The position numbers were made by a program, and so were the translations under genes. A stretch of DNA of 64,000 nucleotides from Nocardioides aromaticivorans (GTDB taxonomy: Bacteria; Actinomycetota; Actinomycetes; Propionibacteriales; Nocardioidaceae), in the NCBI RefSeq assembly GCF_013408525.1, contig NZ_JACBZM010000001.1:558001-622000 (forward strand), in the 5' to 3' direction. Shown piece by piece: positions 5,533 to 20,994 of this stretch (its first letter is position 1; the number at the start of each line of letters is the position of its first letter). The notes under the pieces are model-generated. The model saw only the letters and a program-made list of their open reading frames with translations, had not been told where the DNA came from and did no database searches.

Positions 5533-5591
5533 CGAGAACCTCCGAATGGGATGTGGCTTGTCTAAGGCCCACTTCCACCCGGAGGTTCTCG
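5533..5591 (+). promoter_or_regulatory. Hairpin that can hide the transposase ribosome binding site
   Basis: The arms cgagaacctccg (5533-5544) and its exact complement (5580-5591) bracket a 35-base loop. The right arm contains the GGAGG Shine-Dalgarno sequence and the first base of the GTG start codon. Transcripts entering from outside the element would fold this arm away, as known for other insertion sequences that avoid activation by read-through. Confidence 0.6.
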
Positions 5592-6556
5592 TGTCCCACG
5601 GTAGTGCCCGGCTGACCGTTCATGGTCGTCGGCTGATCGTTGCCCGCCACCAGGCTGGCTGGCCTCAGGCCCACATCGCCGCGGCGATGGGCGTGTCCCG
5701 CAAATGTGTGAAGACCTGGATCGACAGGTTCGCTGCTGAAGGCGAAGTAGGGCTCATGACCCGGTCGTCGCGCCCGCACTCGATGCCCACCAAGACCCGC
5801 GACGAGGTCGAGCAGAAGGTCCTGGCTGCGCGTGCCGAGCGTCGTGACGGCCCCGACGTTCTCGGACCGAAGGTCGGCGTGCCCGCGCGCACGGTGTCGC
5901 GGATTCTGCGCCGCCACCATGTGCCGTACCTGCGCGAGCTAGATCCGATCACCGGTGAGGTGATCCGGTCCTCGAAGCAGACTGGCGTTCGCTACGAGCG
6001 CGAACGACCAGGCGAGCTGGTGCACATGGACGTCAAGAAGCTCGGCAAGATCCCCGCCGGCGGTGGGTGGAAGGCCCACGGCCGAGGGGCCGGATCGATC
6101 ATGCGTGATCGCAGCACCAAGGTCGGATACGACTACGTGCACTCGCTCGTCGACGACCACTCCAGGCTGGCCTACAGCGAGATCCTGCCGGATGAGAAGG
6201 GCCCCGCCTGTGCAGAGTTCCTCGAGCGAGCCATCGCCTACTTCGCCGCGCACGGCATCGCCCGGATCGAGCGACTGATGACGGACAACGCCTGGGCCTA
6301 CCGATGGTCGCTACGAACGGTGTGCGCCGATCACGGCATCACACAGAAGTTCATCAAGCCGCACTGCCCGTGGCAGAACGGCAAGGTAGAGCGCCTGAAC
6401 CGCACCCTGACTACCGAGTGGGCCTACCGCCAGGTCTTCACCAGCAACGACGAACGCCAGGCCGCCCTTGCGCCCTGGATCGAGCACTACAACACTGAAC
6501 GCCGCCACAGCGCACTCGGAGGCAAGCCGCCAGTCAGCCGGCTGCTACCAACCTGA
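5591..6556 (+). CDS. IS481-family transposase (DDE recombinase)
   Basis: The enzyme would cut and join the ends of the insertion sequence. An N-terminal helix-turn-helix (ARHQAGWPQAHIAAAMGVSRK) is followed by an integrase core of the rve type. Likely catalytic acids are the Asp in LVHMDVKKLG, the Asp in LMTDNAWAY and the Glu in NGKVERLNRT. The frame is open from 5546, but the GTG at 5591 with GGAGG five bases upstream gives MSHGSARLTVHGRRL and a normal length of 321 residues. No frameshift or early stop is seen, so it may be active. Confidence 0.93.
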   Translation: MSHGSARLTVHGRRLIVARHQAGWPQAHIAAAMGVSRKCVKTWIDRFAAEGEVGLMTRSSRPHSMPTKTRDEVEQKVLAARAERRDGPDVLGPKVGVPARTVSRILRRHHVPYLRELDPITGEVIRSSKQTGVRYERERPGELVHMDVKKLGKIPAGGGWKAHGRGAGSIMRDRSTKVGYDYVHSLVDDHSRLAYSEILPDEKGPACAEFLERAIAYFAAHGIARIERLMTDNAWAYRWSLRTVCADHGITQKFIKPHCPWQNGKVERLNRTLTTEWAYRQVFTSNDERQAALAPWIEHYNTERRHSALGGKPPVSRLLPT

Positions 6557-7550: not shown

Positions 7551-8357
7551 TCAGGCGGTCTCGCCCGGCTGTGCCCTCCGGATCACGATGCGCGTCCAGG
7601 CGCCGAGGTAGACCCGGTCGTCGGGCCCGATCTCGCGCTTCTCCCCCGCCGGCAGCGGGTCATTCGGCAGCGGCCCGACGGCCGAGCCGAGATAGGTCCC
7701 GTTGGACGAGCCGAGGTCCTCCACCCACCAGCGCGTGCCGTCGGTGGTCAGCTGGCAGTGCCGCCGGCTGATCCCGTTGTCGGCGCCGAGGTCGATGTCG
7801 GGGTGGATCCCGCGGCTGCGTGACGTGCGGCCCACGAGGATCGACGTCGTCCGCAGGGGTACGACGACCGGCACGCCCGCCGAGGGCAGCGGATCGGTCG
7901 ACTCCTGGTCGGCGTACCAGTCCGGGTCGATCCAGACCTCCGCGACCCAGGCCTCCCCCAGGGGTGGCGCCACCGAGGAGGGCGCCGACTCCGCGGGCGG
8001 GGCCACCGGTCCCGTGGCGGCCGGCGAGTCACCGGCATCGGCGGACGGGTCGGCCGCCGCGGTGCCGACGGGGGTGTCGAGGTCGAGCACCGACGGGGTC
8101 ACCGGGCGCGGCATCGACCCGGTCGTGTAGTCGTAGCCGCACGCCTCGCAGAAGAGCGCGTTGGGCGGGTTGGCGGCCTGGCAGTTCGGGCAGGCCGACG
8201 TGGTCGGCGCGGGCGTCGGCTCCGGTGCCGCCGGCGCGGGGTCGGGAGCAGCCGGAGCGGCGGTCGTCGTACCACCGCCGGCAGGGATGGGCAGGCCGCA
8301 GACGTCGCAGTAGTCGTCCGAGCCGGACTCGTGCCCGGACGGGCAGGTGGAGGTCAC
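7551..8357 (-). CDS. Zinc-ribbon and FHA domain protein
   Basis: A 268-residue protein with a Cys-rich N-terminus (C5, C17, C20: DDYCDVCG), a second ribbon (CPNCQAANPPNALFCEACG, around 57-75) and a C-terminal forkhead-associated domain (GRTSRSRGIHPDIDLG, then ISRRHCQL and SSNGTYLG, about 175-260). FHA domains bind phosphothreonine, so this is the expected receptor or effector of the PknG-type kinase in the same operon, comparable in role to mycobacterial GarA but with added ribbons. It starts with GTG inside the stop codon of the preceding VWA gene (GTGA overlap) and is the last gene of the ten-gene operon. Confidence 0.88.
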   Translation of the reverse strand: MTSTCPSGHESGSDDYCDVCGLPIPAGGGTTTAAPAAPDPAPAAPEPTPAPTTSACPNCQAANPPNALFCEACGYDYTTGSMPRPVTPSVLDLDTPVGTAAADPSADAGDSPAATGPVAPPAESAPSSVAPPLGEAWVAEVWIDPDWYADQESTDPLPSAGVPVVVPLRTTSILVGRTSRSRGIHPDIDLGADNGISRRHCQLTTDGTRWWVEDLGSSNGTYLGSAVGPLPNDPLPAGEKREIGPDDRVYLGAWTRIVIRRAQPGETA

Positions 8358-9640
8358 GGCGTCTCCTTGCGGATCCTCGTGGTCTTGGTGGACGCGGTGT
8401 CGAGCGCCATCTCGTCGGCCTTGTCGACGGCACGCTTGAGCCGGACCGTGCCGGTCTCCTCGTTCTCGACGTCGACGACCTTCCGCAGCTTGCTGGTGGC
8501 CTCGTCGTTGCCGGTCTCGGCGGCGAGCTGGACCGCACGGCCGAGCTTGGTCGTCGCGGTCGCCTCGTCACCGGAGGCCTTGGCCGCGAGGCCCTCCTGG
8601 ATCATCTGCGCGAGCTCGGTCTGCCCGGTGTAGTGGGCGACCTGCTGGTCGATGCGGGTGGTCAGCTCGGAGTTGTTGGACCAGGTCGCCTTCACCAGGC
8701 CCTGCGTCACGACGTCGTCGCCGATCGCGAGCTGCACCCGCGCGGCCAGCTGCTCCTGGCCGATCGCCTTCGCCGGCACCCGGACGGCGACGTGGTAGTC
8801 ACGCGACTCGTCGGACCAGGCGCCCGTCGGGTAGTCACCGGTCAGCGGGTTGACGGGGGTACGACGGCTGGTGAGGTCTTCGACCGTCGGCGACACCTGC
8901 CGCACGAAGAGCACCTCCGCGCCCTGCGGCGTCCACACCCGCAGCGACGCGTCGGCGACACCGCGGGACATGGCGTTGCGCATGATCTCCTCGAACTGCG
9001 CCTTCATCTCCGCGGGGCTCGGGATGATGTCGACCGTGCCGAGCAGGGCCTGCGCGATCCGGCGGATCTCGGCGACCTGCCAGTCGGTGCCGGCGCCGCG
9101 GCAGTCGGCCTGGAAGTAGCCGGTGGCGCGGTTGATCGCCTCGTCGAGGCGGCCGGGGCGTTCGCGGTTCTCGCCGTCGGTGAGCAGCAGCACGTGGCGC
9201 TGGGTCACCTCGGCGACCGATGCGAAGAGCTGGCCGGCGAGGTCGAGCCAGGTGCTGATCGCCGTACCGCCGCTGCCGACGAAGCGGCCGATCGCGTCGG
9301 AGGCCGCCTGGCGTGCGGAGGGGTCCATGCGGACCATGCCCGGGCCGCTGGAGACCTGCGGGAAGGCGAGCATCGCGCGGTCGGCGCCCGCGATGACGGC
9401 GAAGTAGGTGCCGTCGACGATCTCGGCGAGCGCCGCCTGCGCGGCCTCCTTCGCCGCGGCCATCGTCGCGGGCCCCATCGAGCCGGAGGTGTCGACGATG
9501 ATGATCTCGCCGGCCGAGCCGGAGCCGCCCTGTCCGGCCGTGCCGGCGCCGGAGCAGGTCACCGTCACGATCGCGTTGACGTCGGTCCCGCCGTCGGGCA
9601 GGAACTCGTTCTGGTAGACGGAAGCGGTGAACTCAGCCAT
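8354..9640 (-). CDS. VWA domain protein of the PknG operon
   Basis: A 428-residue protein whose von Willebrand A domain has the metal-site DTSGSMG motif (about residues 50-56), the second threonine in GGTAIST and LLTDGENRE. VWA proteins of this kind act as scaffolds or regulators with kinases and PP2C phosphatases, for example in the TerY-type triads. The C-terminal part (about 240-428) is a mixed alpha/beta region of no recognised family. The start at 9640 has AGGAGGAG upstream and overlaps the PP2C gene by 8 bases. The long frame upstream is a shadow. Confidence 0.88.
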   Translation of the reverse strand: MAEFTASVYQNEFLPDGGTDVNAIVTVTCSGAGTAGQGGSGSAGEIIIVDTSGSMGPATMAAAKEAAQAALAEIVDGTYFAVIAGADRAMLAFPQVSSGPGMVRMDPSARQAASDAIGRFVGSGGTAISTWLDLAGQLFASVAEVTQRHVLLLTDGENRERPGRLDEAINRATGYFQADCRGAGTDWQVAEIRRIAQALLGTVDIIPSPAEMKAQFEEIMRNAMSRGVADASLRVWTPQGAEVLFVRQVSPTVEDLTSRRTPVNPLTGDYPTGAWSDESRDYHVAVRVPAKAIGQEQLAARVQLAIGDDVVTQGLVKATWSNNSELTTRIDQQVAHYTGQTELAQMIQEGLAAKASGDEATATTKLGRAVQLAAETGNDEATSKLRKVVDVENEETGTVRLKRAVDKADEMALDTASTKTTRIRKETP

Positions 9641-10781
9641 CGCTCGGCTCTCCTCCTGGGGTCGGCGTCTGGCCATTCTGCCCGAGGGCGGTCTGCCCGG
9701 GATCGACGCGGGCCAGCGCTGCGGTGATGTTGTCGTGCCCGCCCGCGCCGTTGGCGAAGGCGACGAGTGCGGTGGCGATCGTGAGCGGCTCGGTGGAGCC
9801 GACGGCGTGGACCTGCTCGGCGATCGCCTCGGGGGTCGAGGCGTAGTTCCACAGGCCGTCGGAGCAGGCCAGGAGCCAACCCGGCTCGGTGACCTCCAGG
9901 CTGCCGACGGTCGGCACGAAGTCCTCCGAGTCACGGCCCAGCCACTTGGTGATCGCGTGGGCCTGCGGGCCGTTCTCCGCGACCTCCCGCGGTACGCCGG
10001 AGGCGATCTGCGCCTGTGCGACGGAGTCGTCGACCGAGAGCTGCACCGGGGTGCCGGCGTCGGGGATCCAGTAGGTCCGCGAGTCACCGATGTTGGCCCA
10101 GCTGATCCGGGCGCCCTCCAGCACGGCCGTGGTGAAGGTGGCCGAGGCGGGGTTGGTCGAGTCGGGGTCGGTGACGGCGATGATCGCGGTGTTGGCCGCG
10201 GCCGCGGCGTTGGCGAACACCTTGGCGACGGCGGCGTCGCGGCCCTGCGGCGTCCCCATGCCGGCGGGGAGCGGGACGCGCAGCACCTCGCGCGCCGCCC
10301 GGGCGCCGGCGAGCGAGGCGACGTCGGAGTCGATCGAGTTGGAGACCCCGTCCATCACGACCAGCACGGCCCGTGAGCCGGGCGCCTGGCCGGCGAGGAG
10401 CGCCATGGCGTCCTCGTTGCGGCTCTTGCCGATCGCCTTGTCGCACACGCCGGCCACCCACGGGGCGGGCTGCTCCTCGAAGTGGTCGCGCTCGCTGGGG
10501 GCCTTCGTCCCGCACTCCAGGCAGTAGAGGTCGGGACCGACCTCTCCCCCGCACTCCGTGCAGGGCCGACGGCCCGCGGGAGCGGGCGGGTCCGGCAGCG
10601 CCGAGGCGGGCTTGCGGGTGGGCGCGCTGATCGGCGCGTCGCCGAGGGGGTGGTCGGCGTCGCCCCCGGGCGCAGTCATCGGCGCGGCGGGAGCCGCGAC
10701 CGTCGTACCGAGCTGGGCGCCGCAGGCCTCGCAGAAGCGGGCACCCTCGGTGACGGCCGTGCCGCAGGAGGGACAGGTCAC
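9633..10781 (-). CDS. PP2C-type protein phosphatase with N-terminal zinc ribbons
   Basis: A 382-residue Ser/Thr phosphatase. Two zinc ribbons come first (CPSCGTAVTEGARFCEACG at 2-20 and CTECGGEVGPDLYCLECG near 77-94). The PP2C fold follows with KSRNEDAMA (about 119), VVMDGVSNS (about 142), NIGDSR (about 233), CSDGLWNY (about 307) and GGHDNIT (about 347), supplying the usual metal-binding aspartates. It would oppose the kinase encoded immediately upstream. The GTG start overlaps the kinase stop (GTGA). Confidence 0.92.
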   Translation of the reverse strand: MTCPSCGTAVTEGARFCEACGAQLGTTVAAPAAPMTAPGGDADHPLGDAPISAPTRKPASALPDPPAPAGRRPCTECGGEVGPDLYCLECGTKAPSERDHFEEQPAPWVAGVCDKAIGKSRNEDAMALLAGQAPGSRAVLVVMDGVSNSIDSDVASLAGARAAREVLRVPLPAGMGTPQGRDAAVAKVFANAAAAANTAIIAVTDPDSTNPASATFTTAVLEGARISWANIGDSRTYWIPDAGTPVQLSVDDSVAQAQIASGVPREVAENGPQAHAITKWLGRDSEDFVPTVGSLEVTEPGWLLACSDGLWNYASTPEAIAEQVHAVGSTEPLTIATALVAFANGAGGHDNITAALARVDPGQTALGQNGQTPTPGGEPSDG

Positions 10782-13201
10782 GTCAGGCTCCAGTTCCGCA
10801 CGGCGTTGGCCTGGTTGACCAGCTCGACCCGCTCCTTCACGTCGATGGCGTCGCGCGCCAGCGAGCGCAGGGCGTTCTCGAGGCCGTCGCGCACCCCCAC
10901 CTCGGTCGCGGCGACGGAGCCGATCCGGGCGCCCTCGGGCACCTGCCCGTTGCCGGAGACGACCGGCAGCGCCTCGGTGAGGATCCGCACCGTGTAGCGC
11001 TGGCGGGTCCTGCCGTCGATGCTCGAGGACTCGATGGTCCGCATCGCCTGGTCGAGCACGGCGAGGTCGTGCGCACCGCCGGAGAGCAGCACCTCCGCCC
11101 GCTGCTGGCGGGCCTCGGTGTAGCCGCGGCTGGTGTTCGGGACGAGGTCGAGCGCGGCCACGGCACCCGGGGTGTCCTTGCGGTCGGCCCGCACGCGGGC
11201 CATGCCGAAGGCCGCCGGCGGGACGTACGCCGCGTCCGTGGCGACGCACACCTGGTAGAGCCCCTCGGCCACCTCCGGCAGGCCGCCGCGCTCGCAGGCG
11301 AAGGCCAGCGCCAGCTTGGGCGCGAGCTCGCCGGGGACCTGCTGGTAGACCGCGTTGAAGGACGCCTTCGCCGTCTCCCAGTCCTGCGCCTGTACGGCGG
11401 CCAGGCCCTCGATCCACAGCGCGCGCCACTCCCAGGGGTCGGCCGCGAGGAGCGCCTGCGCGTGCGCCTGCGCGCCCTTCGCGTCGGACAGCTCGAGGGC
11501 GGCGCGGGCGCGGGCCAGCCACACCTCGGCGCTGTCCTCCGGTGCCTGCTGCAGGTCGGCGAGCCGCTTCTTCGGGTCGTCGGCGCTGATCGACGACAGC
11601 CAGCTGTGCTGTGGGTCGGTGGTGTCCTCGCGCAGCTTCGGCAGCTGGCTCCACTCGGTGATCGGTCGCGAGGTCGCCGGCGACTCGAAGAGCACGGAGG
11701 CCGCCGACGTGGTCGCGGTCCCCTGCCGCTTGCGGGCCACGACCTCGCGCAGCACGCCGAGCACCTGGGAGCGCATCTCGTCGACGGAGGCGAACCGGTC
11801 GGCCGGGTCAGGGGCGCAGCACTTCGCGACCAGCTGGTAGAGCGAGTCGTTCTCCTGGAACAGCGGCGTGGAGTCGACCGGCGGCAGGCTGTGCAGGTAG
11901 GTGCCCTGGTAGCCGCGGAACTCCATCGTCAGCACGACGAGCGTGCGCCCGATCGTGTAGATGTCCGAGGCGACCGACGGCCCGATCTCCGCGACCTCCG
12001 GCGCCTGGTAGCCGACCGTGCCGTAGATCGCCGACTCCTCGTCGTCGATCCGGCGGACGCCGCCGAGGTCGATCAGCTTCATCGCGTCGCCGACCTGGAT
12101 CATGTTGTCGGGCTTGAAGTCGCAGTAGACGAGGCCGAGGTCGTGGAGGTACTGGAACGCCGGCAGCAGCTCGAGGATGTAGGCCAGCGCCTGGTCGACC
12201 GGCAGCGGGTCGTAGGCGCCGTTGTTGGCGGCCATCCGCTGCTTGAGGATCTGCTTGAGGGACTTGCCGCCGACGTACTCCATGACGATGTAGCCCGCAC
12301 CCTCGTGCGTCACGAAGTTGTAGATCTCGACGATGAGCGGGTGCTCGACCTGGGCGAGGAACTGCTGCTCGGCGATCGCCGCCGCCAGCGCGTCCGGGTC
12401 GCCGGAGTTCAGCAGGCCCTTGAGCACGACCCAGCGGTTGGACACGTTGCGGTCGCGGGCGAGGTAGATCCAGCCGAGGCCACCGTGCGCGAGCGCGCCC
12501 GCGACCTCGTACTGCCCCGCGACGAGGTCGCCCTGCTGCAGCTTCGGGGTGAACGAGAACTGCTGGCCGCAGTTGGGGCAGAAGCCCTCGCTGCGACCGG
12601 GCTGCCCGTTGATGCTGCGTCCCACCGGGTTGCCGCACTTGGAGCAGCTGCGCTTGTCCTCGGGCACCTGCGGGTCGGCCATGATCGCCTTGGCGGCGTC
12701 CACCGGCGGTGCGGGAGGTACGACGGTCAGGCCGGCGCCGAGCCGGGCCGAGCGCATCCGCTGCGAGCCGGTGCGGGTGCGCCGCGTGGCGTAGCTGCCC
12801 GTCGTACCGGCGCGCTTGGAGCCGATCGCCGCCGACTGCACGCGGCTGGCGGCCGTGGCGGACGTCCCCTCGCGGCCCGAGAGCGGCTGCGACTCCGCGA
12901 TGGCCGCGGCCTCGGCGACGCGTGCGCCGGGCAGGGCGGGCGAGCCGCACACGTCGCAGTAGCCGTCGAGGATCTTGCCGGTGCACCCGGGCTGCGGGCA
13001 GGGGTCGCCGTTGGCGCCGCGGGAGGCCTTGAGCGTGCCCGTGGCCGTCACGCCGGCGGGGCCGGGCAGTGCGGACGCCGCCGTCGCGGCAGGGGCTGCG
13101 GGGGCTGCGGGGGCTGCGGCGGCGCTGTCGCCGGCCATGCCGCAGACGTCGCAGTAGCCGTCGACGATGCTGCCCGTGCAGCCGGGCTGGGTGCAGCTCA
13201 T
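10778..13201 (-). CDS. pknG: Serine/threonine protein kinase PknG with extra zinc ribbons
   Basis: An 807-residue cytosolic kinase. Two short Cys modules at 3-20 and 68-85 (both with GCTGxIxDGYCDVCG) precede a rubredoxin-like module (CSKCGNPVGRS...FCPNCG, 185-211) like that of mycobacterial PknG. The kinase domain (about 225-500) has GALAHGGLGWIY, VLK, the catalytic YCDFKPDN (about 357) and IDLGG in place of DFG, again as in PknG. The rest (about 520-807) is TPR-like. The linker at about 125-160 is rich in Thr, Ser and Arg and could hold autophosphorylation sites for the FHA partner. In mycobacteria PknG controls glutamate metabolism through an FHA protein. The ATG at 13201 has AAGGAG upstream and overlaps the preceding stop (ATGA). 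Confidence 0.95.
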   Translation of the reverse strand: MSCTQPGCTGSIVDGYCDVCGMAGDSAAAAPAAPAAPAATAASALPGPAGVTATGTLKASRGANGDPCPQPGCTGKILDGYCDVCGSPALPGARVAEAAAIAESQPLSGREGTSATAASRVQSAAIGSKRAGTTGSYATRRTRTGSQRMRSARLGAGLTVVPPAPPVDAAKAIMADPQVPEDKRSCSKCGNPVGRSINGQPGRSEGFCPNCGQQFSFTPKLQQGDLVAGQYEVAGALAHGGLGWIYLARDRNVSNRWVVLKGLLNSGDPDALAAAIAEQQFLAQVEHPLIVEIYNFVTHEGAGYIVMEYVGGKSLKQILKQRMAANNGAYDPLPVDQALAYILELLPAFQYLHDLGLVYCDFKPDNMIQVGDAMKLIDLGGVRRIDDEESAIYGTVGYQAPEVAEIGPSVASDIYTIGRTLVVLTMEFRGYQGTYLHSLPPVDSTPLFQENDSLYQLVAKCCAPDPADRFASVDEMRSQVLGVLREVVARKRQGTATTSAASVLFESPATSRPITEWSQLPKLREDTTDPQHSWLSSISADDPKKRLADLQQAPEDSAEVWLARARAALELSDAKGAQAHAQALLAADPWEWRALWIEGLAAVQAQDWETAKASFNAVYQQVPGELAPKLALAFACERGGLPEVAEGLYQVCVATDAAYVPPAAFGMARVRADRKDTPGAVAALDLVPNTSRGYTEARQQRAEVLLSGGAHDLAVLDQAMRTIESSSIDGRTRQRYTVRILTEALPVVSGNGQVPEGARIGSVAATEVGVRDGLENALRSLARDAIDVKERVELVNQANAVRNWSLT

Positions 13202-14325
13202 GGCGTCTCCTTGGTGAGCCAGGTCTGGTAGGTCGTGACGAGCTGGCGGGCCACGGCCATCGGGCACGGGCGACGCTCCAGCAGGGCGCGCGCGGCGCGC
13301 TCGCTCTCGGCCAGGTCGGGGTTGTCGGCGAGGCGAGCGGCGCGGGCCTTCGCGACGTAGCCGTCGAGGAGCCCGACGAGCTGGGTGTGCTCGTCGAGCG
13401 CGGCGGCGTACGCGTGCTGCGCGACCTCCATCGCCTGCGCCACCCGGTCGAGGCGCTCCAGGTAGGGCTCGATCCCCTCCGGGGTGACCGGCACCGGACC
13501 GAGCAGCTCGACGTCGGGGACGGCGTAGCGCGGCGCCGGGTCGACGGTGGCGACCGCCGTCTCGGCGAGCTTGGCCAGGGCGGCCTCGCGGGCCTCGAGG
13601 TCCGCGCGGAGCTCGCGTGCGGAGAGGACCTTGCTGCGGGCGTCGCGGCGGCGCGCGTTGCCGACGATCAGGTCGCGCTCGAAGGTCGTCGCCTCGGCCT
13701 CCAGCGGACCGAGCATGCCCCCCACGTCGCCGCCGCGCTCCGCCTTGGCCGTCAGCACCTCGAGCCGGGCCATCAGCTCGGCCAGGCGCTCGATCGCGGC
13801 GTCGCGGCTGTTGGCGGGCTCGAGGCCCACCTGGTCGCGGATCCGCTCCAGCTGGGCGCGCAGCTCACGGATCCGGGTCGCCGACCTGTCCGCGTCGGGC
13901 ACCAGCGCGAGGCGGGTGCGGAGCTGGCCGGTCAGCGCGTCGCAGAGCCGGCCGGCCTCGGGCAGCGACACCGCCAACCCGCCGGGCAGCTCGGACGCGC
14001 TGTCGAGGCGCCCCCACACGAGCGCGGAGATCCGCTCCCGCTCCTGGCGGAGCACCCGTCCGCCGTCCCACGTCGCGAAGACGAGCTGGTAGCGGTCGGC
14101 GATCGCCTTCCAGAGCGCCAGCGCGAGGGACATGTCGCCCGCGAGCTCGCCACCCCGACCCGCCGCGATCGCGGCTCGGTCGAGCTCGTCGAGCTCCGAT
14201 CGTCGTACCCGCAGCCAGGTGTCGAGCTCGGCCAGGTAGGTCTGGATCGCCGCAGGGTCCAGCGCGTCCCCGAGCTTGCCGGGGGCGGTGGGGGCGGTGG
14301 CGGTCGCGGCCTGCTGCACGGTCAC
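13198..14325 (-). CDS. Predicted coiled-coil protein of the glnH-pknG operon
   Basis: A 375-residue, Ala/Arg/Glu/Leu-rich soluble protein with long helical heptad-like stretches (for example LAELMARLEVLTAKAERG and ARELRADLEAREAALAKL). No signal peptide or membrane segment is seen. I recognise no catalytic family. Because it lies between the solute-binding lipoprotein and the kinase with 4-base overlaps on both sides, an adaptor between GlnX and PknG is a reasonable guess. The GTG at 14325 overlaps the glnH stop (GTGA); the frame upstream of it is not needed. Confidence 0.75.
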   Translation of the reverse strand: MTVQQAATATAPTAPGKLGDALDPAAIQTYLAELDTWLRVRRSELDELDRAAIAAGRGGELAGDMSLALALWKAIADRYQLVFATWDGGRVLRQERERISALVWGRLDSASELPGGLAVSLPEAGRLCDALTGQLRTRLALVPDADRSATRIRELRAQLERIRDQVGLEPANSRDAAIERLAELMARLEVLTAKAERGGDVGGMLGPLEAEATTFERDLIVGNARRRDARSKVLSARELRADLEAREAALAKLAETAVATVDPAPRYAVPDVELLGPVPVTPEGIEPYLERLDRVAQAMEVAQHAYAAALDEHTQLVGLLDGYVAKARAARLADNPDLAESERAARALLERRPCPMAVARQLVTTYQTWLTKETP

Positions 14326-15287
14326 CGGCCGTACTGCGGGGTCGGCGGCGTCGCGTCGCCGAGGTAGGGCTCGAGCCACTCGTCGTACGACGCCTGCCAG
14401 TCGCCGTTGCTGCGCCGCTCCTCGAGGACGGAGTTGACGAAGCGGATCAGGGCGACGTCGTCCTGGTTGGCGCCGATGCCGTAGGGCTCGTCGGTGAGCT
14501 TCTTCTGCTCGGGAACCTCGGCATAGGGGTCCTGCGCGGCCAGACCGGCGAGCACCGTGTCGTCGCCGGTGATCGCGTCGACCTCACCCTGCTGGAACTT
14601 CACCAGGCATCCCGTGTGGTTGGCTGCCGCCACCGTCACGACGTCGGGCTGGATCTTCTTGATGTTGTCGATGCTGGTGGACCCGGCCGGAGCGCAGACC
14701 TTCTTGCCCGACAGCGACTTCACGCCCTTCTTCTCGAAGGCCGCGACGTCGTCCTCGCGGACCAGCACCTTCTGTGTCGCGTTGTAGTAGACGGCGGAGA
14801 AGCCGATCTGGCTCCAGCGCGTGCAGTTCATCGTGTAGTTGCGGGCAACGAGATCGATCTCCTGCTCGTGCGTCTCACCGTCGATGGTCGCACCGAGCAG
14901 CGTGGGACGCTCGGCCGCGCTGATGACGCGCAACTGGAGGTCGACGCCGAGCGCGTCGGCGATGGCCTGGGCGACATCGATGTCGAAGCCCTGGATCTCA
15001 CTGTCCTTGAAGGGATTGGCCCATCCCATCTGGAAGGTGTCTGCGGAGACTCCGACGACCAGCCGGTCCTCGTTGAGCAGCTGCGCCCTGGCGGCACCGC
15101 GGTCAGTGCTCGGCGCGTACGACTGGGTCGGGTTGTCGCACTCGACCGGCTTCGTGCCGGCGGCAGGCGTGCTCCCTGCCGCCTTCGGCGGCGGGACCAC
15201 GGTCTCGTCGTAGCCGCAGGCGCCGAGCAGGAGCAGTGCAGCCGTGAGCGTGGTGGCGAGCACGCGCGGCGTCGTCGCACGGATCAC
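14322..15287 (-). CDS. glnH: Amino-acid-binding lipoprotein GlnH
   Basis: A 321-residue extracellular solute-binding protein (family 3) with a lipoprotein signal: hydrophobic LLLLGAC with the lipidated Cys at 24. The ligand-binding region contains QMGWANPFKDSEIQGFDIDVAQAI, recognisable for polar amino acid binding proteins, and later FQQGEVDAITGDD. In mycobacteria GlnH binds aspartate or glutamate outside the membrane and signals through GlnX to PknG. The same gene order here supports a sensing role rather than uptake, and no transporter genes are near. It overlaps glnX by ATGA. Confidence 0.92.
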   Translation of the reverse strand: MIRATTPRVLATTLTAALLLLGACGYDETVVPPPKAAGSTPAAGTKPVECDNPTQSYAPSTDRGAARAQLLNEDRLVVGVSADTFQMGWANPFKDSEIQGFDIDVAQAIADALGVDLQLRVISAAERPTLLGATIDGETHEQEIDLVARNYTMNCTRWSQIGFSAVYYNATQKVLVREDDVAAFEKKGVKSLSGKKVCAPAGSTSIDNIKKIQPDVVTVAAANHTGCLVKFQQGEVDAITGDDTVLAGLAAQDPYAEVPEQKKLTDEPYGIGANQDDVALIRFVNSVLEERRSNGDWQASYDEWLEPYLGDATPPTPQYGR

Positions 15288-16603
15288 GAGAACTCCCTCC
15301 GTCGCTCGCCGATACCTCGGGCGACGAAGGCCGCTGCGCCCAGTCCGAGCAGCAGGGACAGGATGCTGACCGCCAGCGCCAGTCCCCGACCGCTCTCGAG
15401 GTCGCCGGTGACGTTGTCGCTTGCCGTCGCCACGATGGTCTCCGATGCGCTGTCGAAGGCGTTGAGCGGCTTCGACGAGCCGTCATCACCGGTGGTCGTC
15501 GCGAGGTCGCGGGCCTTCGTCCAGTGGCCGCCGTCGTCCTGCTTCCGGATCTCCCGGTAGACCGCGTCGTAGTCGCTCCACTGCTCACCGGTGTCACGGC
15601 GAGACGATTTCTTGACGACCTCCGCCGACTTCTCCCAGTTGGTCACGTAGGTGGCACCGGAGCCGCGCTTGATCAGCGCGAGGCTCTCGTTGGCCTTGGC
15701 GTCGTTCGCCGCGGTCCGGGCGTTGGCCTGCGAGATCGCCAGCGCGAGGTCGCCCTCACGCAGGCTGTCGTTGGAGTTGTCCCGCAGCCACGCACCGACG
15801 ACACCCACGATCGTCACGACCAGCACGATCGCGCCCGCGATGGCGACACCCTTGTTGACCCGCCTCCGGAAGGCGCCGGCCAGCTGCTGGTTGATGACGA
15901 ACAGAGCCGCGAGGGCGAGGACCCCGACCAGCAGCAGCCAGAACGGGTGCTGACCGTTCATGGAGCCCTCTGCTCGGTCGGTGTTGGCTGCGACGAGGGC
16001 GGCGAGGATCGGGATCGCGGCGTCGATGGGGTCGGAGGTGTCGGTCGCGGGCACGGAGTTGCGCAGCGCGGTGCTGGCCCCGCTGAGGTACTCCGCGCCG
16101 ACGGGATAGCCGAGACGGTTGTAGTCGCGAGCCTGGGCCACCGCGGTGACGTAGTCGTTGACCCGGAGGGCCAGCTCCTCCAGGACCGCACGATCCTTCG
16201 GCTGCGCGTCGGCCGCGGCGGTGATGCCCGTCAGCACGTCGTCGATCGCGGCGTCGTACTCCGCGCGCTGCCCTGCATCCTCCAGGCCACCGACCAGGAA
16301 GGCGTTCGTCGCGAGGGCGTCCGCACGGAGCAGCGACGACTGGATCTTCTGGACGCGGACGAGCTGCTGGGTGTCGTCAGCCGCCCGGCCGTCCGCCTGC
16401 CACCCCAGGAACTGCACGAGCGCGCTGACGATGCCGAACACGATCGCCACCGTCATCCCGATCAGCTGCCAGCGGTTGAGCAGGGCGGGGGTGTCGACGT
16501 GGCCCTGGTCGGCTGACGCCGTCGCCGACGTCGTGGCGGGGGCGGCCGCGGGAGCGGGGGCCGCAGGCGGCGGGGCTGCCTGCGGGGGGGCGGTCTGGCT
16601 CAC
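15284..16603 (-). CDS. glnX: Membrane sensor protein GlnX
   Basis: A 439-residue membrane protein. A proline/alanine-rich cytosolic N-terminus is followed by a membrane helix (about 45-67), a helical extracellular domain to about 220, two further helices (about 222-275), a second extracellular helical region, and a last helix near 407-430 ending in RRREFS. This two-module, four-helix layout resembles chemoreceptor sensing domains and matches GlnX of mycobacteria, the link between GlnH and PknG. It overlaps its neighbours on both sides by 4 bases. Confidence 0.88.
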   Translation of the reverse strand: MSQTAPPQAAPPPAAPAPAAAPATTSATASADQGHVDTPALLNRWQLIGMTVAIVFGIVSALVQFLGWQADGRAADDTQQLVRVQKIQSSLLRADALATNAFLVGGLEDAGQRAEYDAAIDDVLTGITAAADAQPKDRAVLEELALRVNDYVTAVAQARDYNRLGYPVGAEYLSGASTALRNSVPATDTSDPIDAAIPILAALVAANTDRAEGSMNGQHPFWLLLVGVLALAALFVINQQLAGAFRRRVNKGVAIAGAIVLVVTIVGVVGAWLRDNSNDSLREGDLALAISQANARTAANDAKANESLALIKRGSGATYVTNWEKSAEVVKKSSRRDTGEQWSDYDAVYREIRKQDDGGHWTKARDLATTTGDDGSSKPLNAFDSASETIVATASDNVTGDLESGRGLALAVSILSLLLGLGAAAFVARGIGERRREFS

Positions 16604-18444
16604 GACTGCTCCTCGGGGGCGGCGGGCCGGTCGGGCCGGCGGGGGTGCTGGGGCAGGGTGGTCTCGGTGCCGAACGGACCGGCCGCCTCCTGCGCCGGAG
16701 GTGCCGGCGGCGGGGGTGGCGGGGGCGGCGGGGCCGCGGACGGCTTGACGATCAGGGTCGCCTCCGCGCCGCTGAGCGGCGACGCCTCCAGCTCCGGCTC
16801 CGGAACGGGCTGGGGTTCGGGCTGAGGCTCGCGCTGAGGCTCCGGCTCGGGCTGGGGCTCGGGGACGAACGGCTCCACCGGCTCGGCCGGCGGCGCGTCG
16901 GCCGGCGGCACGACCTCGCCCTCGGCTGCCGGCGCATCGGCCGCATCCGGCGCGGTGTCGTTGGGGTCGACGACCAGGTCCTCGGGCTCGAGGGTGCGCA
17001 GCTGCTCCAGCGTCGGCTCGGCGATGTCGCGCAGGCGCCAGGCGTGGCGGCCGATCGCGGCCTCCATCAGGTTGCGCACGAAGCGCGCGTTGCCGAAGGA
17101 CGGACCCCGCGGGGTCTCGGCGAGGATCTCCTTCAGCCGCGTGACGACCGCGTCGCTCGCGTCGTAGTCGGCGCCGGAGACCATCGAGCTGAAGATGCCG
17201 ACCAGCTCGTCGTCGGTGTAGTTGGCGAAGTCGATGGTGGTGCGGAAGCGGCTCTCGAGGCCGGGGTTCTCGGAGATGAAGACCGCCATGGGGAGCGGGT
17301 AGCCGGCGACGATGACCACGAGGTCGTCGCGCTTGTCCTCCATCTCCTTCACGAGGGTGTCGATCGCCTCCTTGCCGTACTGGTCGCCGGAGAGCGAGTA
17401 CGCCTCGTCGATGAACAGCACGCCGCCCTCGGCCGACGCCACGACCTCGGCGGTCTTCGCGGCCGTCTGGCCGAGATAGCCCGCGACGAGCTCGGAGCGG
17501 TCGACCTCGACCAGCTGGCCCTTCGAGAGCAGCCCGAGGGCGCGGTAGATCCCTGCGACGAGCCGGGCGACCGTCGTCTTGCCGGTGCCCGGGTTGCCGT
17601 TGAAGACCAGGTGGCGGGTGATCGTCGGGGTGTCCAGGCCGGCCTTCTTGCGCAGCCCCTCGACCCGCAGCACCGCGGCCTGCCGGTGGATCTCGCCCTT
17701 GACGTTGGCGAGACCGATGAGGGCGTCGAGCTCCGCGAGGAGCTCCTCGACCGTCTTGGTCGGCTCCTCCGGCTTCGCGGGCTCCTCGGCCGGCTTCTCC
17801 GGCTCCGCCGCCTGCGTCTGTACGCCGTCAGCGGGGCCGCCCGCGGACGGAACCGCCGGCGCAGGACCGGTCACCGGGTCGGCGGGGAGGAGCGGCGCGG
17901 CGTCGTTGAGCGCGCCGAGCTGGCGTCGTACCTGCTCACCGACGCGGCGGACCTGCTCCAGCACCTCGTCGCCAACGCCCGGGACCGGCTGCCGCTCGGG
18001 CAGCTGGAAGGCGCCCGGACCGCCGACGGGCGGGGTCAGTCCGGCGCTGCCACCACCCAGCTGGGCGGTGGTCACGGTGGTCGCCGCGCCGACGGCGTCG
18101 GGCCCGGGCTCGCCGAGCCGGGAGCCGGCGAGGGCGGCGTCGGCGAGCGCGCCGGCGTAGTCGGCGGAGTGGGGGGACTTCTCCAGCAGCAGCTGGGCCA
18201 TCAGCGGCGTCGGCCCGGCCCGGAAGCGGTTGCCGCGCTTGGCGGCGAGCATGTGCTCCTCCGCCGACCGATCCCGCCCGGTCTGGATGCACCAGTCGAC
18301 GAACGCGCCGCGCGAGCGCTCCGAGACCGTGGCCGCGACGGCCTCGCCCTCCGCCCGGGCGGCTGCCTCGTCCGCACCAGCGGCACGGGCGACGGCCGCG
18401 AGCGCGTCGAGCGCGTCGGCGAGGCTGCCGACCGGCGCCGTCAC
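16600..18444 (-). CDS. CbbX/CfxQ-type AAA+ ATPase
   Basis: A 614-residue protein with one AAA+ module (about 230-470): GNPGTGKTT near 282, VLFIDEAYSL near 335, and the C-terminal GNARFVRN sensor region. The N-terminal 200 residues are helical and Pro/Ala-rich, and the C-terminal 130 are extremely Pro/Glu-rich (PEPQPEPEPQREP-like), a likely flexible tail. Relatives remodel Rubisco (CbbX) or serve type VII secretion (EccA), but no such genes are here. In this operon it may remodel the TelA or PknG complex; that is inference. The GTG start overlaps the preceding gene (GTGA). Confidence 0.85.
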   Translation of the reverse strand: MTAPVGSLADALDALAAVARAAGADEAAARAEGEAVAATVSERSRGAFVDWCIQTGRDRSAEEHMLAAKRGNRFRAGPTPLMAQLLLEKSPHSADYAGALADAALAGSRLGEPGPDAVGAATTVTTAQLGGGSAGLTPPVGGPGAFQLPERQPVPGVGDEVLEQVRRVGEQVRRQLGALNDAAPLLPADPVTGPAPAVPSAGGPADGVQTQAAEPEKPAEEPAKPEEPTKTVEELLAELDALIGLANVKGEIHRQAAVLRVEGLRKKAGLDTPTITRHLVFNGNPGTGKTTVARLVAGIYRALGLLSKGQLVEVDRSELVAGYLGQTAAKTAEVVASAEGGVLFIDEAYSLSGDQYGKEAIDTLVKEMEDKRDDLVVIVAGYPLPMAVFISENPGLESRFRTTIDFANYTDDELVGIFSSMVSGADYDASDAVVTRLKEILAETPRGPSFGNARFVRNLMEAAIGRHAWRLRDIAEPTLEQLRTLEPEDLVVDPNDTAPDAADAPAAEGEVVPPADAPPAEPVEPFVPEPQPEPEPQREPQPEPQPVPEPELEASPLSGAEATLIVKPSAAPPPPPPPPPAPPAQEAAGPFGTETTLPQHPRRPDRPAAPEEQS

Positions 18445-18950
18445 TGCGACCCCAGGTTGAGGTCGCCACCGGTCGAGGAGTGCCCGAACTTCGCGTCCAG
18501 GAACTGTCCGTGCGCGACCAGCGCCTGGGCGTCGGCGCGGTTGGCCGCATCGAAGATCTTGTCCATCGTGGCTCCGAGCAGCTCGAGTTGTTCGATGAGG
18601 ATCATCAGCGCGGTCTTCTGGCCGTCGATCGGCCGGGTGTCGGCCCAGTCGCGGGGCAGGCGGAGGTAGCCGTCGACCGCCTCGGGCAGGTAGTCCGTCG
18701 CGGTCGCGACGACCGAGAAGGCCTCGAGGCTGCCGAGCCCCATCTGCTGCAGGCGCGGCAGCGTCTGGTGGATCGTGCGCGCGATCCGCACGACGCGCGA
18801 GACCACCACCGGCGGCGCGTTGCCGTCCCGGAGCATCGCGTTGATCCGGTTCAGCGCCGCGAGGATGTCCTTCTCGGTCGGCGGTGGCGGGGCGGCGTAC
18901 TGCTGCTCCTCAGCGTCCCTGCCCCGCTTGAACCACGACTTCAGCCCCAC
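18441..18950 (-). CDS. 169-residue protein of the telA-pknG operon, unknown function
   Basis: It starts at GTG 18950 (MGLKSWFKRGRDAEEQ, reading the GTG as Met), 38 bases after telA, and ends inside the start of the AAA+ gene (GTGA). It is helical, with an amphipathic basic N-terminus that could touch the membrane and a core including IARTIHQTLPRLQQMG and TDYLPEAVDGYLRLP. No family is named by me. Similar small helical proteins often accompany TelA. A structural partner of TelA or the ATPase is plausible. Confidence 0.7.
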   Translation of the reverse strand: MGLKSWFKRGRDAEEQQYAAPPPPTEKDILAALNRINAMLRDGNAPPVVVSRVVRIARTIHQTLPRLQQMGLGSLEAFSVVATATDYLPEAVDGYLRLPRDWADTRPIDGQKTALMILIEQLELLGATMDKIFDAANRADAQALVAHGQFLDAKFGHSSTGGDLNLGSQ

Positions 18951-18988
18951 CCGATCCCGTCCTGTCCCCTCGGCCGGCGACCGCGCGC

Positions 18989-20218
18989 TCAGCCGATGTC
19001 CAGCGTGCCGGCGGCATTGCGCGCGTCGTGCTGCTGGACCCGGTCGAGGTACGCCTTGGACTTCTGGACCTCGTTCTCGAGGACGCCGATGGTGGTCGAC
19101 ATGTTGTCGAGCGCCTTGAGCTTGAACTCGTCGATCGAGTCCATCGTGGCGTAGATGTTGGCGAAGGCGGCCTGGAGCTGCTCGATGCCGATCGTCGACG
19201 ACGCCGCCTGCTCCTGGATGCGCGCGGAGTTGTCCTTGAGCATCTCGGAGGTGCGCTGGATCATCGCCGAGGTCGTCGTGTTGAGCGCCGTGATCTGGTC
19301 GAGGACCAGCTTCTGGTTGCTCAGTGCTTGGGCGACGATGACCGCGGTCCGCAGGGCGGAGATCGTGGTCGTGGTGGCCCGGTCGACACCCTTGATGAGC
19401 TCGATGTTGTTCTTGATGATGATGTCGATCGCCAGGTAGGCCTGGATCGACACCGCGAGCTGGGTGAGCAGGTCCTGGTGCTTCTGGCGGACGTAGAACA
19501 GCACGTCCTGCGAGAGCGTCTTGGCCGTCTCCGGGTCGCTGAGCTCGAGCTCGGCGATCTTCGCGGACAGCTTGGCATCGAGCTTCTCGGCGACGTAGAT
19601 GTACTGGTTGAGGCGTCCCATGACCGACCAGAGGTTGGTCTTCTCGAGGTTGAGCGCCACGTTGTCCTTGGTCAGCTCGTCCTGGCCGCTGCGCAGCGAG
19701 TGCAGGATGCCGTTGAGCTGGGTCTGCGAGGACTGGTACTTGCGGAAGTAGTCCTCGATCTTGTCGTTGAAGGGCAGCTTGTTCCACCACTTCTTCGCGC
19801 CGGTGGCCTGGCCCGGGTCGAGGTCCTCGACCGTACGACGGAGGTCGAGCAGCGTCTTGCCGACGGTGGAGCCCTCGGACAGACCGCCCGCCTTGAGCGC
19901 GCTGACCGGCTTGTCGAGCATCCGGTTGGACGTCTCGGCGGCCTTGCGGATGTCGGCGTCGCCCATGGTGCGGACGTTCTCCGCCTGCGCCGCGAACTCC
20001 GGGCTGCCGGCCTTCGTCGAGGTCAGCGAGGTGAGGAAGTTGTCGACCTTCGCGTCGAGCTCGGGCACCATCGCCGCCTCGACCTGCGGCGCCATCTTCG
20101 GCGCCTGGGTCTCGACGACGGGCGCGGCCGGCTCGGGCGCGGTGAGTGTGAGGGCAGGCTCGGGGGGTGCGAGCGGGCTGGGCTCGGGAGCGGGTGCCTG
20201 GGAACCATCGGTGGTCAT
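18989..20218 (-). CDS. telA: TelA-family (toxic anion resistance) protein
   Basis: A 409-residue protein, mostly long helices after a Pro/Ala-rich N-terminal 50 residues. The stretch from YVRQKHQDLLTQLAV through IIKNNIELIKGVDRATTTTI to ALDNMSTTIGVLENEVQKSK is characteristic of the TelA family, known from tellurite and cell-envelope stress loci. The ATG at 20218 is preceded at 7 bases by TAGGCT, a -10-like box, so the operon may begin as a leaderless transcript. It is the first of ten genes read toward 7551. Confidence 0.92.
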   Translation of the reverse strand: MTTDGSQAPAPEPSPLAPPEPALTLTAPEPAAPVVETQAPKMAPQVEAAMVPELDAKVDNFLTSLTSTKAGSPEFAAQAENVRTMGDADIRKAAETSNRMLDKPVSALKAGGLSEGSTVGKTLLDLRRTVEDLDPGQATGAKKWWNKLPFNDKIEDYFRKYQSSQTQLNGILHSLRSGQDELTKDNVALNLEKTNLWSVMGRLNQYIYVAEKLDAKLSAKIAELELSDPETAKTLSQDVLFYVRQKHQDLLTQLAVSIQAYLAIDIIIKNNIELIKGVDRATTTTISALRTAVIVAQALSNQKLVLDQITALNTTTSAMIQRTSEMLKDNSARIQEQAASSTIGIEQLQAAFANIYATMDSIDEFKLKALDNMSTTIGVLENEVQKSKAYLDRVQQHDARNAAGTLDIG

Positions 20219-20258: not shown

Positions 20259-20951
20259 TCAGCGCAGAAGTTCAGGGTCCGCCTCAGGGATGCCACCGAC
20301 CCGGCCGAGCGGGCCCAGATCGACGAGGAACCACGGCATCATCCACTGGGCGATCGGCCCGATGGCGAGCGCGTAGGCGACCGTGCCGACGCCGAGCGTG
20401 CCGCCCAGGAGCAGGCCGATCACGACGACGGCGACCTCGAGGGCGGTGCGCACCAGCCGGATCGAGAGACCGGTACGACGGGCGAGGCCGGTCATCAGGC
20501 CGTCCCGGGGTCCGCGGCCGAGCTGGGCGCCGATGTAGAGCGCGGTGGCCAGTCCGCAGAGCACGATGCCGCCGACCATCAGCGCCACCCGGGCGGCCAT
20601 CGCGTGCGGGGCGTCGAGCACGGCGAGCGTGAGGTCGGCGGAGAGACCGACCACGATCGCGTTGGAGATCGTGGCGATGCCGGGCTTCTCCCGCAGCGGG
20701 ATCCAGAGCACGAGCACCACGAAGCTGAAGAGGACCACCGCCTGGCCCAGCGTGATCGGCACGTGGCGGATGAACCCGGAGTGCAGCACGTCCCAGGGAG
20801 CCAGGCCGATGTCGCCGCGCACCATGAGGGCGAGGCTGGCGCCGTACAGGAAGAGGCCGACGTAGAGCTGGACGAGACGGCGCGGCAGGCGGCCGGCACG
20901 GAGCTGGGTGATCGGGCCGAGGTCGGCGAGCTGCACGGTCGAGCTGGACAT
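20259..20951 (-). CDS. YczE/YitT-like membrane protein
   Basis: A 230-residue integral membrane protein with five to six hydrophobic helices and motifs typical of the YczE family (YGASLALMVRGDIGLAPWDVLHSG and LGRGPRDGLM). The function of the family is unknown. It is divergent from a MocR-type regulator, a pairing repeatedly seen in bacteria, suggesting that the regulator controls it. The ATG at 20951 (MSSSTVQLADLGP) was chosen because the upstream codons lie in the shared promoter region. Confidence 0.82.
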   Translation of the reverse strand: MSSSTVQLADLGPITQLRAGRLPRRLVQLYVGLFLYGASLALMVRGDIGLAPWDVLHSGFIRHVPITLGQAVVLFSFVVLVLWIPLREKPGIATISNAIVVGLSADLTLAVLDAPHAMAARVALMVGGIVLCGLATALYIGAQLGRGPRDGLMTGLARRTGLSIRLVRTALEVAVVVIGLLLGGTLGVGTVAYALAIGPIAQWMMPWFLVDLGPLGRVGGIPEADPELLR

Positions 20952-20969
20952 GGGACCAGCCTGTCCGGG

Positions 20970-20994
20970 ATTGGACTGTTTCCAAATAGCCAAT
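20970..20994. promoter_or_regulatory. Putative MocR operator between yczE-like gene and regulator
   Basis: The 61-base divergent spacer holds attgg (20970-20974) and its complement ccaat (20990-20994) as outer arms. An inner ttgg/ccaa pair (20971-20974, 20982-20985) shares the left arm. It is the only AT-rich, symmetrical stretch in the spacer, so it is a good candidate for regulator binding. Confidence 0.45.

Follow-up and report, generated by a model that had tools for sequence, protein, structure and literature searches.

A conserved ten-gene operon in Nocardioides, apparently of single origin, as an enlarged variant of the PknG signalling system with an optional receptor

As known so far, the PknG system is a nutrient switch of three genes that acts on a single metabolic enzyme. 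In excerpts of the open literature, the operon of mycobacteria and Corynebacterium glutamicum is described as glnX-glnH-pknG (PMC6069109, PMC8546545, PMC9769921), and signalling is reported to need GlnH, GlnX and the TPR domain of PknG (PMC6069109, PMC8546545). Here we analyse a relative of this system in a 64,000-nucleotide stretch of Nocardioides aromaticivorans (assembly GCF_013408525.1, contig NZ_JACBZM010000001.1, positions 558,001 to 622,000), hereafter the window, which belongs to a 5.26 Mb genome whose nearest named relatives are Nocardioides and Pimelobacter. Between positions 7551 and 20218, ten minus-strand open reading frames (ORFs), none with an internal stop, follow one another in the order telA, orf9, aaa, glnX, glnH, orf5, pknG, pp2c, vwa and fha in the direction of transcription. 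The locus shares with the three-gene system a related GlnH, a PknG of rubredoxin-kinase-TPR architecture, a GlnX-type protein and the order glnX-glnH-(orf5)-pknG. By contrast, it adds seven genes in one overlapping unit, GlnH is sometimes absent from it, and its FHA protein is not OdhI/GarA, whereas the three-gene loci that we fetched (L052-L054) carry glnX-glnH-pknG alone. We propose that this conserved operon, apparently of single origin, is an enlarged variant of the PknG signalling system with an optional receptor.

Another relative is a seven-gene module of other actinobacteria, glnX-glnH-orf5-pknG-pp2c-vwa-fha, which has in common with the operon the pp2c, vwa and fha genes beside pknG, an orf5 homologue and the type of tail on its VWA protein, whereas no telA or AAA gene was found at its loci. 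To our knowledge, this module has no name. The telA end of the operon resembles the TelA/YaaN-XpaC pair of Firmicutes (Listeria lmo1966-lmo1967, B. subtilis xpaC-yaaN), in which TelA and a small partner gene are likewise adjacent, but in the operon an AAA+ gene and a kinase gene are joined to telA. Excerpts of two papers place the Firmicutes pair in an envelope-stress setting (PMC12791056, PMC3498285), and one of them gives a 4-fold increase in nisin susceptibility for a Listeria mutant with a disrupted TelA gene (PMC12791056).

The TerY-P triad, as set out in part of PMC11090510, consists of a VWA protein, a PP2C phosphatase and a kinase fused C-terminally to a zinc ribbon, and SpoVK-type ATPases accompany it in some restriction systems. 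Adjacent genes for a VWA protein, a PP2C phosphatase and a Ser/Thr kinase, zinc ribbons and a TelA context are shared with the operon, but here the kinase has N-terminal ribbons, a rubredoxin domain and a C-terminal TPR domain, and an extracellular receptor half is added. A preliminary description of the window, made from its sequence, had likened the locus to these triads; the adjacency of the same three enzyme types supports this, but the likeness is functional at most, because the ribbons of the kinase are N-terminal and not C-terminal. The enlarged PknG unit was not described in the open-licence literature that our search covered (subscription papers lay outside it), including the available parts of PMC1262709 and PMC9769921, and no open-licence paper was found that brings PknG together with 'toxic anion resistance'.

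Conservation and origin of the ten-gene block

Re-reading of the ORFs bore out the preliminary count of ten genes with eight of nine junctions overlapping by 4-8 bases. Seven junctions (orf9/aaa, aaa/glnX, glnX/glnH, glnH/orf5, orf5/pknG, pknG/pp2c and vwa/fha) overlap by 4 bases and pp2c/vwa by 8 bases (vwa ATG at 9640, pp2c end at 9633), leaving telA/orf9 as the sole gapped junction, with 38 bases. Four-base overlaps are by themselves frequent in such genomes; what is beyond chance is the conservation of order and overlaps, not the overlaps per se. All ten genes occur in order in 28 of the 31 mapped loci, the exceptions being L103, which is without glnH, L108, where pknG is read in two frames, and L109, which reaches a contig edge after pp2c. 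A few loci show a split reading frame, in glnH (L010, which is counted within the 28, and L184) or in pknG (L108, L157, L164, L212), and L092 and L181 have the usual gene order as judged by match position. Loci were mapped with profiles made from the operon itself, which remote relatives can escape. Four-base overlaps were found at aaa/glnX in 88 of 94 loci, at glnX/glnH in 70 of 72 and at orf5/pknG in 81 of 90, with looser junctions at vwa/fha (15/36) and glnH/orf5 (46/76); these figures lean high, since starts were chosen close to the upstream stop, and about a fifth of the loci represent the same genome present twice.

A scan of named relatives with the TelA of the window (the best 80 of 185) yielded 63 loci with at least 8.6 kilobases (kb) downstream, 62 of which have pknG in the same order. 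This is not an unbiased rate, because the best 80 all lie close to the telA of the window. The 63rd locus (L226) at first seemed to lack pknG behind telA, but was rejected as an exception: its AAA gene is broken by stretches of N in the assembly, and the remainder was recovered at L228. Carriers among these 62 include Janibacter, Nostocoides, Terrabacter, Ornithinimicrobium, Micropruina, Propionicimonas and Propionicicella. The named-scan loci overlap the other mapped loci, such that the 90 telA-linked PknGs comprise 71 distinct sequences and 19 repeats, and these repeats inflate the active-site, junction, half-tree and PknG-tree counts.

Within the genus, pknG was detected in 27 of 78 genomes; the VWA_3_C domain occurs in exactly these 27, each of which also has telA within 9 kb. 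Only one genus genome, G540, has telA but no pknG; its locus (L110, 8569-11448) is a ter-type cluster in the order TerD, telA, orf9-like gene, TerD. The block is flanked by a membrane-protein gene on one side and leuB on the other in 24 of the 27 genomes (hand tally; in G586 across a contig break), while in G330, G485 and G539 it occupies another site. In the 51 operon-less genomes, the two flanking genes lie at most 12 kb apart in 39 and at most 1.4 kb apart in 16 (hand tally); for the remaining 12, the pair is widely separated or split between contigs, or one member was not found. As far as three markers (pknG, telA and VWA_3_C) tell, the block appears to be kept or lost whole.

Outside this lineage, telA was present in none of 43 pknG loci and pknG in none of 29 telA loci, all hand-picked from survey lists and several stopping at contig edges. 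The pp2c, vwa and fha genes adjoin pknG in 18 of the 43, mostly together with glnX and glnH and, where checked, an orf5 homologue, with glnX-glnH placed behind fha in L027-L030, L032 and L034-L036. An orf9 relative occurs in 18 of the 29 telA loci, although none was found in the Streptomyces-like L071-L078, and in L079 telA directly overlaps an AAA+ gene, with no pknG. Because these loci hold each without the other, the PknG module and the TelA module can each occur on their own. Among 296 genomes sampled across the class, the PknG TPR domain was found in 108 and TelA in 59; 43 genomes have both, and in 9 of these the two lie within 9 kb. The close pairs belong to seven genomes of the same genus (that of the window included), G411, with the same order, and G253, of the same class. 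The survey of pknG neighbourhoods suggested in the preliminary description therefore gave a divided answer, with the halves usually apart outside the lineage and not apart inside it.

In a tree of 133 PknG sequences (FastTree, midpoint root), the 90 telA-linked proteins form one clade with no others within it (support 0.979). For 68 loci, the trees of the two operon halves have 50 of 65 splits in common, and their patristic distances correlate with r = 0.94; five splits with strong support in the first-half tree contradict the tree of the second half. Given one PknG clade, matching half trees and halves that lie apart elsewhere, the fusion looks single and the block looks inherited as such thereafter. 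Of the single signalling complex that the preliminary description had envisaged, inheritance as one unit is thus retained (r = 0.94; the same 27 of 78 genomes), but an amino-acid receptor at its core is not, since GlnH can be absent.

Table 1 Features of the ten-gene block and its upstream neighbour (positions in the window; aa, amino acids; pLDDT, predicted local distance difference test score)
Feature	Position	Strand	Basis or remark
telA, TelA-family protein, 409 aa, first gene of the conserved block	18989..20218	minus	PF05816 2.7e-92
orf9, 169 aa helical bundle, TelA-partner family	18441..18950	minus	hhalign to telA-adjacent proteins; AlphaFold pLDDT 87
aaa, AAA+ ATPase, 614 aa, SpoVK/CbbX/EccA-like, Pro-rich C-tail	16600..18444	minus	PF00004, PF17866 (AAA + lid)
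glnX, membrane signal transducer, 439 aa	15284..16603	minus	NCBIfam GlnX subfamily 198.9 bits, cut-off 250
GlnX R247 and N250, short loop between middle membrane helices	15854..15865	minus	among 6 invariant columns
GlnX G430 and R434, C-terminal tail	15302..15316	minus	among 6 invariant columns
glnH, lipoprotein amino-acid-binding protein, 321 aa	14322..15287	minus	SBP_bac_3
orf5, 375 aa coiled-coil protein, customary pknG neighbour	13198..14325	minus	hhalign; model pLDDT 88.7
pknG, Ser/Thr kinase, two N-terminal zinc ribbons, rubredoxin domain, C-terminal TPR, 807 aa	10778..13201	minus	PF16918, PF00069, PF16919
pp2c, PP2C phosphatase, two N-terminal zinc ribbons, 382 aa	9633..10781	minus	PF13672 (PP2C_2) + zinc ribbon
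vwa, VWA protein with MIDAS motif and VWA_3_C domain, 428 aa	8354..9640	minus	PF18571 8.1e-20
VWA C-terminal Ser/Thr tail, 14 residues 409-422, proposed phospho-switch	8375..8416	minus	30/30 identical
fha, two zinc ribbons and one FHA domain, 268 aa	7551..8357	minus	PF00498 1.9e-11, DZR
Membrane-protein gene	20259-20993	minus	ends 40 bases before telA; conserved there in most genus genomes that carry the operon

Components of the operon

Profile searches upheld the domain assignments of the preliminary description, with matches to TelA, PknG, PP2C_2, VWA, FHA, SBP_bac_3 and AAA models. The VWA protein ends in a Ser/Thr tail after its VWA_3_C domain, and this tail is the best-conserved segment of the protein among 30 aligned sequences (mean 1.00 versus 0.86 for the rest). 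A looser pattern, L[DE][TA]xS[TV]xT, was present in 46 of 46 complete operon VWAs (45 distinct), made up of 16 from the named scan and 30 others including that of the window, while the other 42 of the 58 from the named scan are truncated where the fetched sequence stops. Outside the operon lineage, the pattern was observed in 17 of 17 VWAs with PP2C in the locus, in comparison to 0 of 11 without PP2C. Among 2130 ORFs longer than 150 amino acids in the operon loci it is terminal in 30, all of which are VWAs. Separately, a group of loci from large, probably Streptomyces-like genomes (L040, L041, L046-L050) has a second, diverged PknG-TPR protein beside a VWA gene, with no PP2C or GlnH in the locus, and in several cases the VWA protein terminates in a zinc ribbon rather than a Ser/Thr tail.

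The enzymes that could act on this tail appear intact. PknG scores above cut-off with PF16919 (90.2 bits), PF00069 (101.5 bits) and PF16918 (174.7 bits), its closest solved structure is PknG 2pzi (E 1.5e-137), and its active-site residues are retained in 92-94 of 94 sequences. All six catalytic residues of PP2C are present in 92 of 92, the MIDAS motif of the VWA protein in 87 of 87 and, by eye, the FHA residues in 29 of 30 loci, with a change of His to Gln in L011. PknG, PP2C and the FHA protein all carry zinc ribbons, with four CxxC knuckles in 29 of 31 PknGs and 27 of 31 PP2Cs, some N-termini being uncertain. A kinase, a phosphatase, an FHA domain that binds phosphothreonine and a conserved Thr tail, encoded side by side, would be the parts of one switch, and the VWA tail is a likely PknG/PP2C phospho-switch read by the FHA protein.

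On the sensor side, GlnX falls below the cut-off of both NCBIfam models, the NF058618 subfamily (Table 1) and the NF041460 equivalog (62.4 of 780 bits); as the subfamily match is nearly full-length, we regard it as a diverged relative. The four residues listed in Table 1 are among the six invariant columns of a 26-sequence alignment, and in a wider count, from which R247 was left out, N250 was kept in 95 of 97, G430 in 95 of 97 and R434 in 94 of 97. The loop between the middle helices and the C-terminal tail are presumed to form the cytoplasmic face, by analogy with the C. glutamicum GlnX topology given in the part of PMC9769921 available to us. GlnH belongs to the GlnH family of PknG operons; its closest solved structure is GlnH 6h1u (E 6.3e-51, residues 47-319), and its lipoprotein Cys24 is kept in 74 of 76.

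Nevertheless, glnH is absent from 18 named-scan loci that extend to pknG, while the rest of the operon is kept. In these 18 genomes the best genome-wide GlnH-like match reaches at most 104.6 bits, the level of ordinary transporter proteins, and 3 of the 18 have none at E 1e-5, in comparison to 262-297 bits in three genomes with an operon glnH; the 18 include metagenome assemblies, whose gaps might conceal a glnH copy, but not at the usual place. The twelve of these loci whose genes were sufficiently complete group in a single clade in each half tree (supports 0.994 and 1.0). L103 (G569) represents a separate loss with its other nine genes in order, and offers a natural comparison for the role of GlnH. 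The GlnX proteins of GlnH-less operons score just 34-130 bits against the family profile, and those of L196 and L203 are a third shorter. Judged from these alignments and gene contents, the amino-acid receptor GlnH is a replaceable part of the operon and not its core, and the invariant positions of GlnX fall mainly on the face presumed to be cytoplasmic. A GlnX segment, AK..ES...GSG, was considered as a GlnH contact site and rejected: it occurs in 65 of 76 GlnH-bearing and 1 of 15 GlnH-less operons, but in 0 of 24 GlnH-accompanied GlnX proteins outside the lineage, and is therefore a lineage marker only.

Two proteins had been described as of unknown family, but kin were found for both by hhalign. 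The orf5 product matches pknG-neighbour proteins of other actinobacteria (ten aligned; probability 97.6, E 3.6e-12), and the orf9 product is homologous to proteins adjoining telA elsewhere (probability 99.9, E 7e-31); no XpaC-type Pfam model was among the matches up to E 1 for 14 orf9-like proteins. Many of these TelA-partner proteins, orf9 and its relatives, end in a short SxLDL-like motif, which may be a docking peptide. TelA itself matches PF05816 with 309.8 bits against a cut-off of 30. The AAA+ protein had been labelled CbbX-type, but is better called SpoVK/CbbX/EccA-like, as SpoVK gives the top score (274.2 of 423 bits, followed by CbbX with 227.1 of 459 and EccA with 226.3 of 467) and no equivalog cut-off is reached. 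Its active-site residues are kept in 98-99 of 103 sequences. An ETT-like phospho-motif in its Pro-rich tail was dropped as a candidate, since it is present in the protein of the window and not conserved among relatives.

Upstream, the membrane-protein gene may be co-transcribed with the block, such that the start of the unit at telA is not certain. Downstream, an IS481-type transposase gene (5546-6556, plus strand) lies between the downstream flank and leuB, and was not seen in the fetched flanks of other mapped loci.

A proposed switch and its alternatives

We consider it somewhat probable that the ten genes constitute one inherited signalling machine, in which a TelA module was joined once to the seven-gene PknG module and the switch controls TelA-orf9. 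This reading draws on the single PknG clade, the conserved order and overlaps, the joint presence and absence, the intact active sites, the match between tail and PP2C, and the loss of GlnH, all of which are read from the sequences; from it we infer phosphorylation of the tail by PknG and its recognition by the FHA protein, contact between the two halves, and the roles of TelA and the ATPase. In the proposed mechanism, telA, orf9 and the AAA+ gene would have been joined, apparently once, with glnX, glnH, orf5, pknG, pp2c, vwa and fha. A signal from outside would reach GlnX, as amino acids via GlnH where it is present and otherwise through the outer domains of GlnX. The small conserved inner face of GlnX, probably together with orf5 as a coiled-coil adaptor, would then set the activity of PknG, whose TPR domain is reported to be required (PMC6069109, PMC8546545). 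PknG would add phosphate to the Ser/Thr tail of the VWA protein and PP2C would take it off, and the phosphorylated tail would be bound by the FHA protein. Through this switch the system would control TelA-orf9, a putative envelope- or stress-protective effector, with the AAA+ protein remodelling the complex.

Several observations weigh against this proposal. The telA/orf9 junction is gapped in 106 of 109 loci. In 34 of the 43 class genomes with both domains, these are on different contigs or separated by at least 78 kb, which speaks against a tight physical need. The match between tail and PP2C is not independent evidence for each genome, because the pattern was picked post hoc and the outside groups differ by ancestry. 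Moreover, the seven-gene loci outside the lineage have the VWA tail without TelA nearby, and therefore the switch predates the fusion and need not act on TelA. A more specific version of the proposal is held tentatively, at somewhat less than even confidence: a sensor-swappable machine with a PknG/PP2C phospho-tail on the VWA protein, an FHA adaptor, a TelA-orf9-AAA+ effector and an optional GlnH, whose output would be membrane or stress protection and not control of 2-oxoglutarate dehydrogenase.

The halves might instead share expression only, being co-transcribed for the same condition while PknG has its own targets and TelA-orf9-AAA works alone. The separation of the halves elsewhere, the gap behind telA and the TelA-AAA pair without pknG in L079 are all consistent with this alternative. 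However, the aaa/glnX junction, which joins the two halves, is the one with a 4-base overlap in nearly all loci, and none of the three markers was left alone in the 51 operon-less genus genomes, bar the one ter-type telA. We therefore regard shared expression alone as rather unlikely, though it is the alternative that survives best.

It is also conceivable that the operon is an ordinary PknG pathway, with control of 2-oxoglutarate dehydrogenase via OdhI/GarA as its output, like that of mycobacteria and corynebacteria, and the other genes merely tuning it. GlnH and PknG are clear relatives of the mycobacterial proteins, and the genome of the window has an OdhI homologue outside the operon (G000:C1:4553190-4553558; 171.9 bits, cut-off 200). 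However, OdhI/GarA homologues were found in 78 of 78 genus genomes (165-191 bits, all under the cut-off) and pknG in 27, such that 51 genomes keep OdhI without PknG, and the Thr-rich N-terminal segment of OdhI looks alike by eye in 14 genomes with and 20 without pknG, three further fetched loci having yielded no row for this comparison. In addition, the FHA protein of the operon misses the OdhI/GarA NF041660 cut-off (32.2 of 200 bits), and GlnH is absent from 18 operons. The homologues of the genus (the G000 copy and L111-L147) have an N-terminal zinc ribbon where the N-terminus was printed, and most have a (D/E)xTATI-like Thr-rich segment. Corynebacterial OdhI is a short form, unlike this zinc-ribbon form. 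Part of PMC9769921 reports other kinases able to phosphorylate OdhI in C. glutamicum, and for this reason its presence in genomes that lack pknG still leaves room for OdhI as a PknG target here. Overall, we judge an ordinary PknG pathway to be improbable.

Least probable of all, and in our view very doubtful, is a TerY-P-like switch for metal sensing or defence, in which the metal would be sensed by the zinc ribbons that PknG, PP2C and the FHA protein carry and TelA would be the effector, for although the adjacent VWA, PP2C and kinase genes, these ribbons and the SpoVK-type ATPases of some TerY-P restriction systems (as given in part of PMC11090510) speak for it, and the kinase matches 30 PADLOC kinase models (best PD-T4-6, 5.4e-38) as any such kinase may, the kinase combines N-terminal ribbons with a C-terminal TPR domain, the VWA protein and PP2C have no PADLOC match, TerD shows no enrichment with the operon (15 of 27 genomes with it versus 30 of 51 without; hand tally), and the block has a fixed chromosomal site in most carriers, unlike a defence island.

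In summary, our comparisons describe a lineage that has welded PknG to TelA, keeps or loses both together, and is able to drop the receptor, which makes both functions testable in harmless soil bacteria. The VWA tail provides the best handle, and its residues are those to mutate first. If the sensor-swappable machine described above holds true, a TelA protein would have an explicit input in this tail, and a second, non-metabolic output would be added to PknG.

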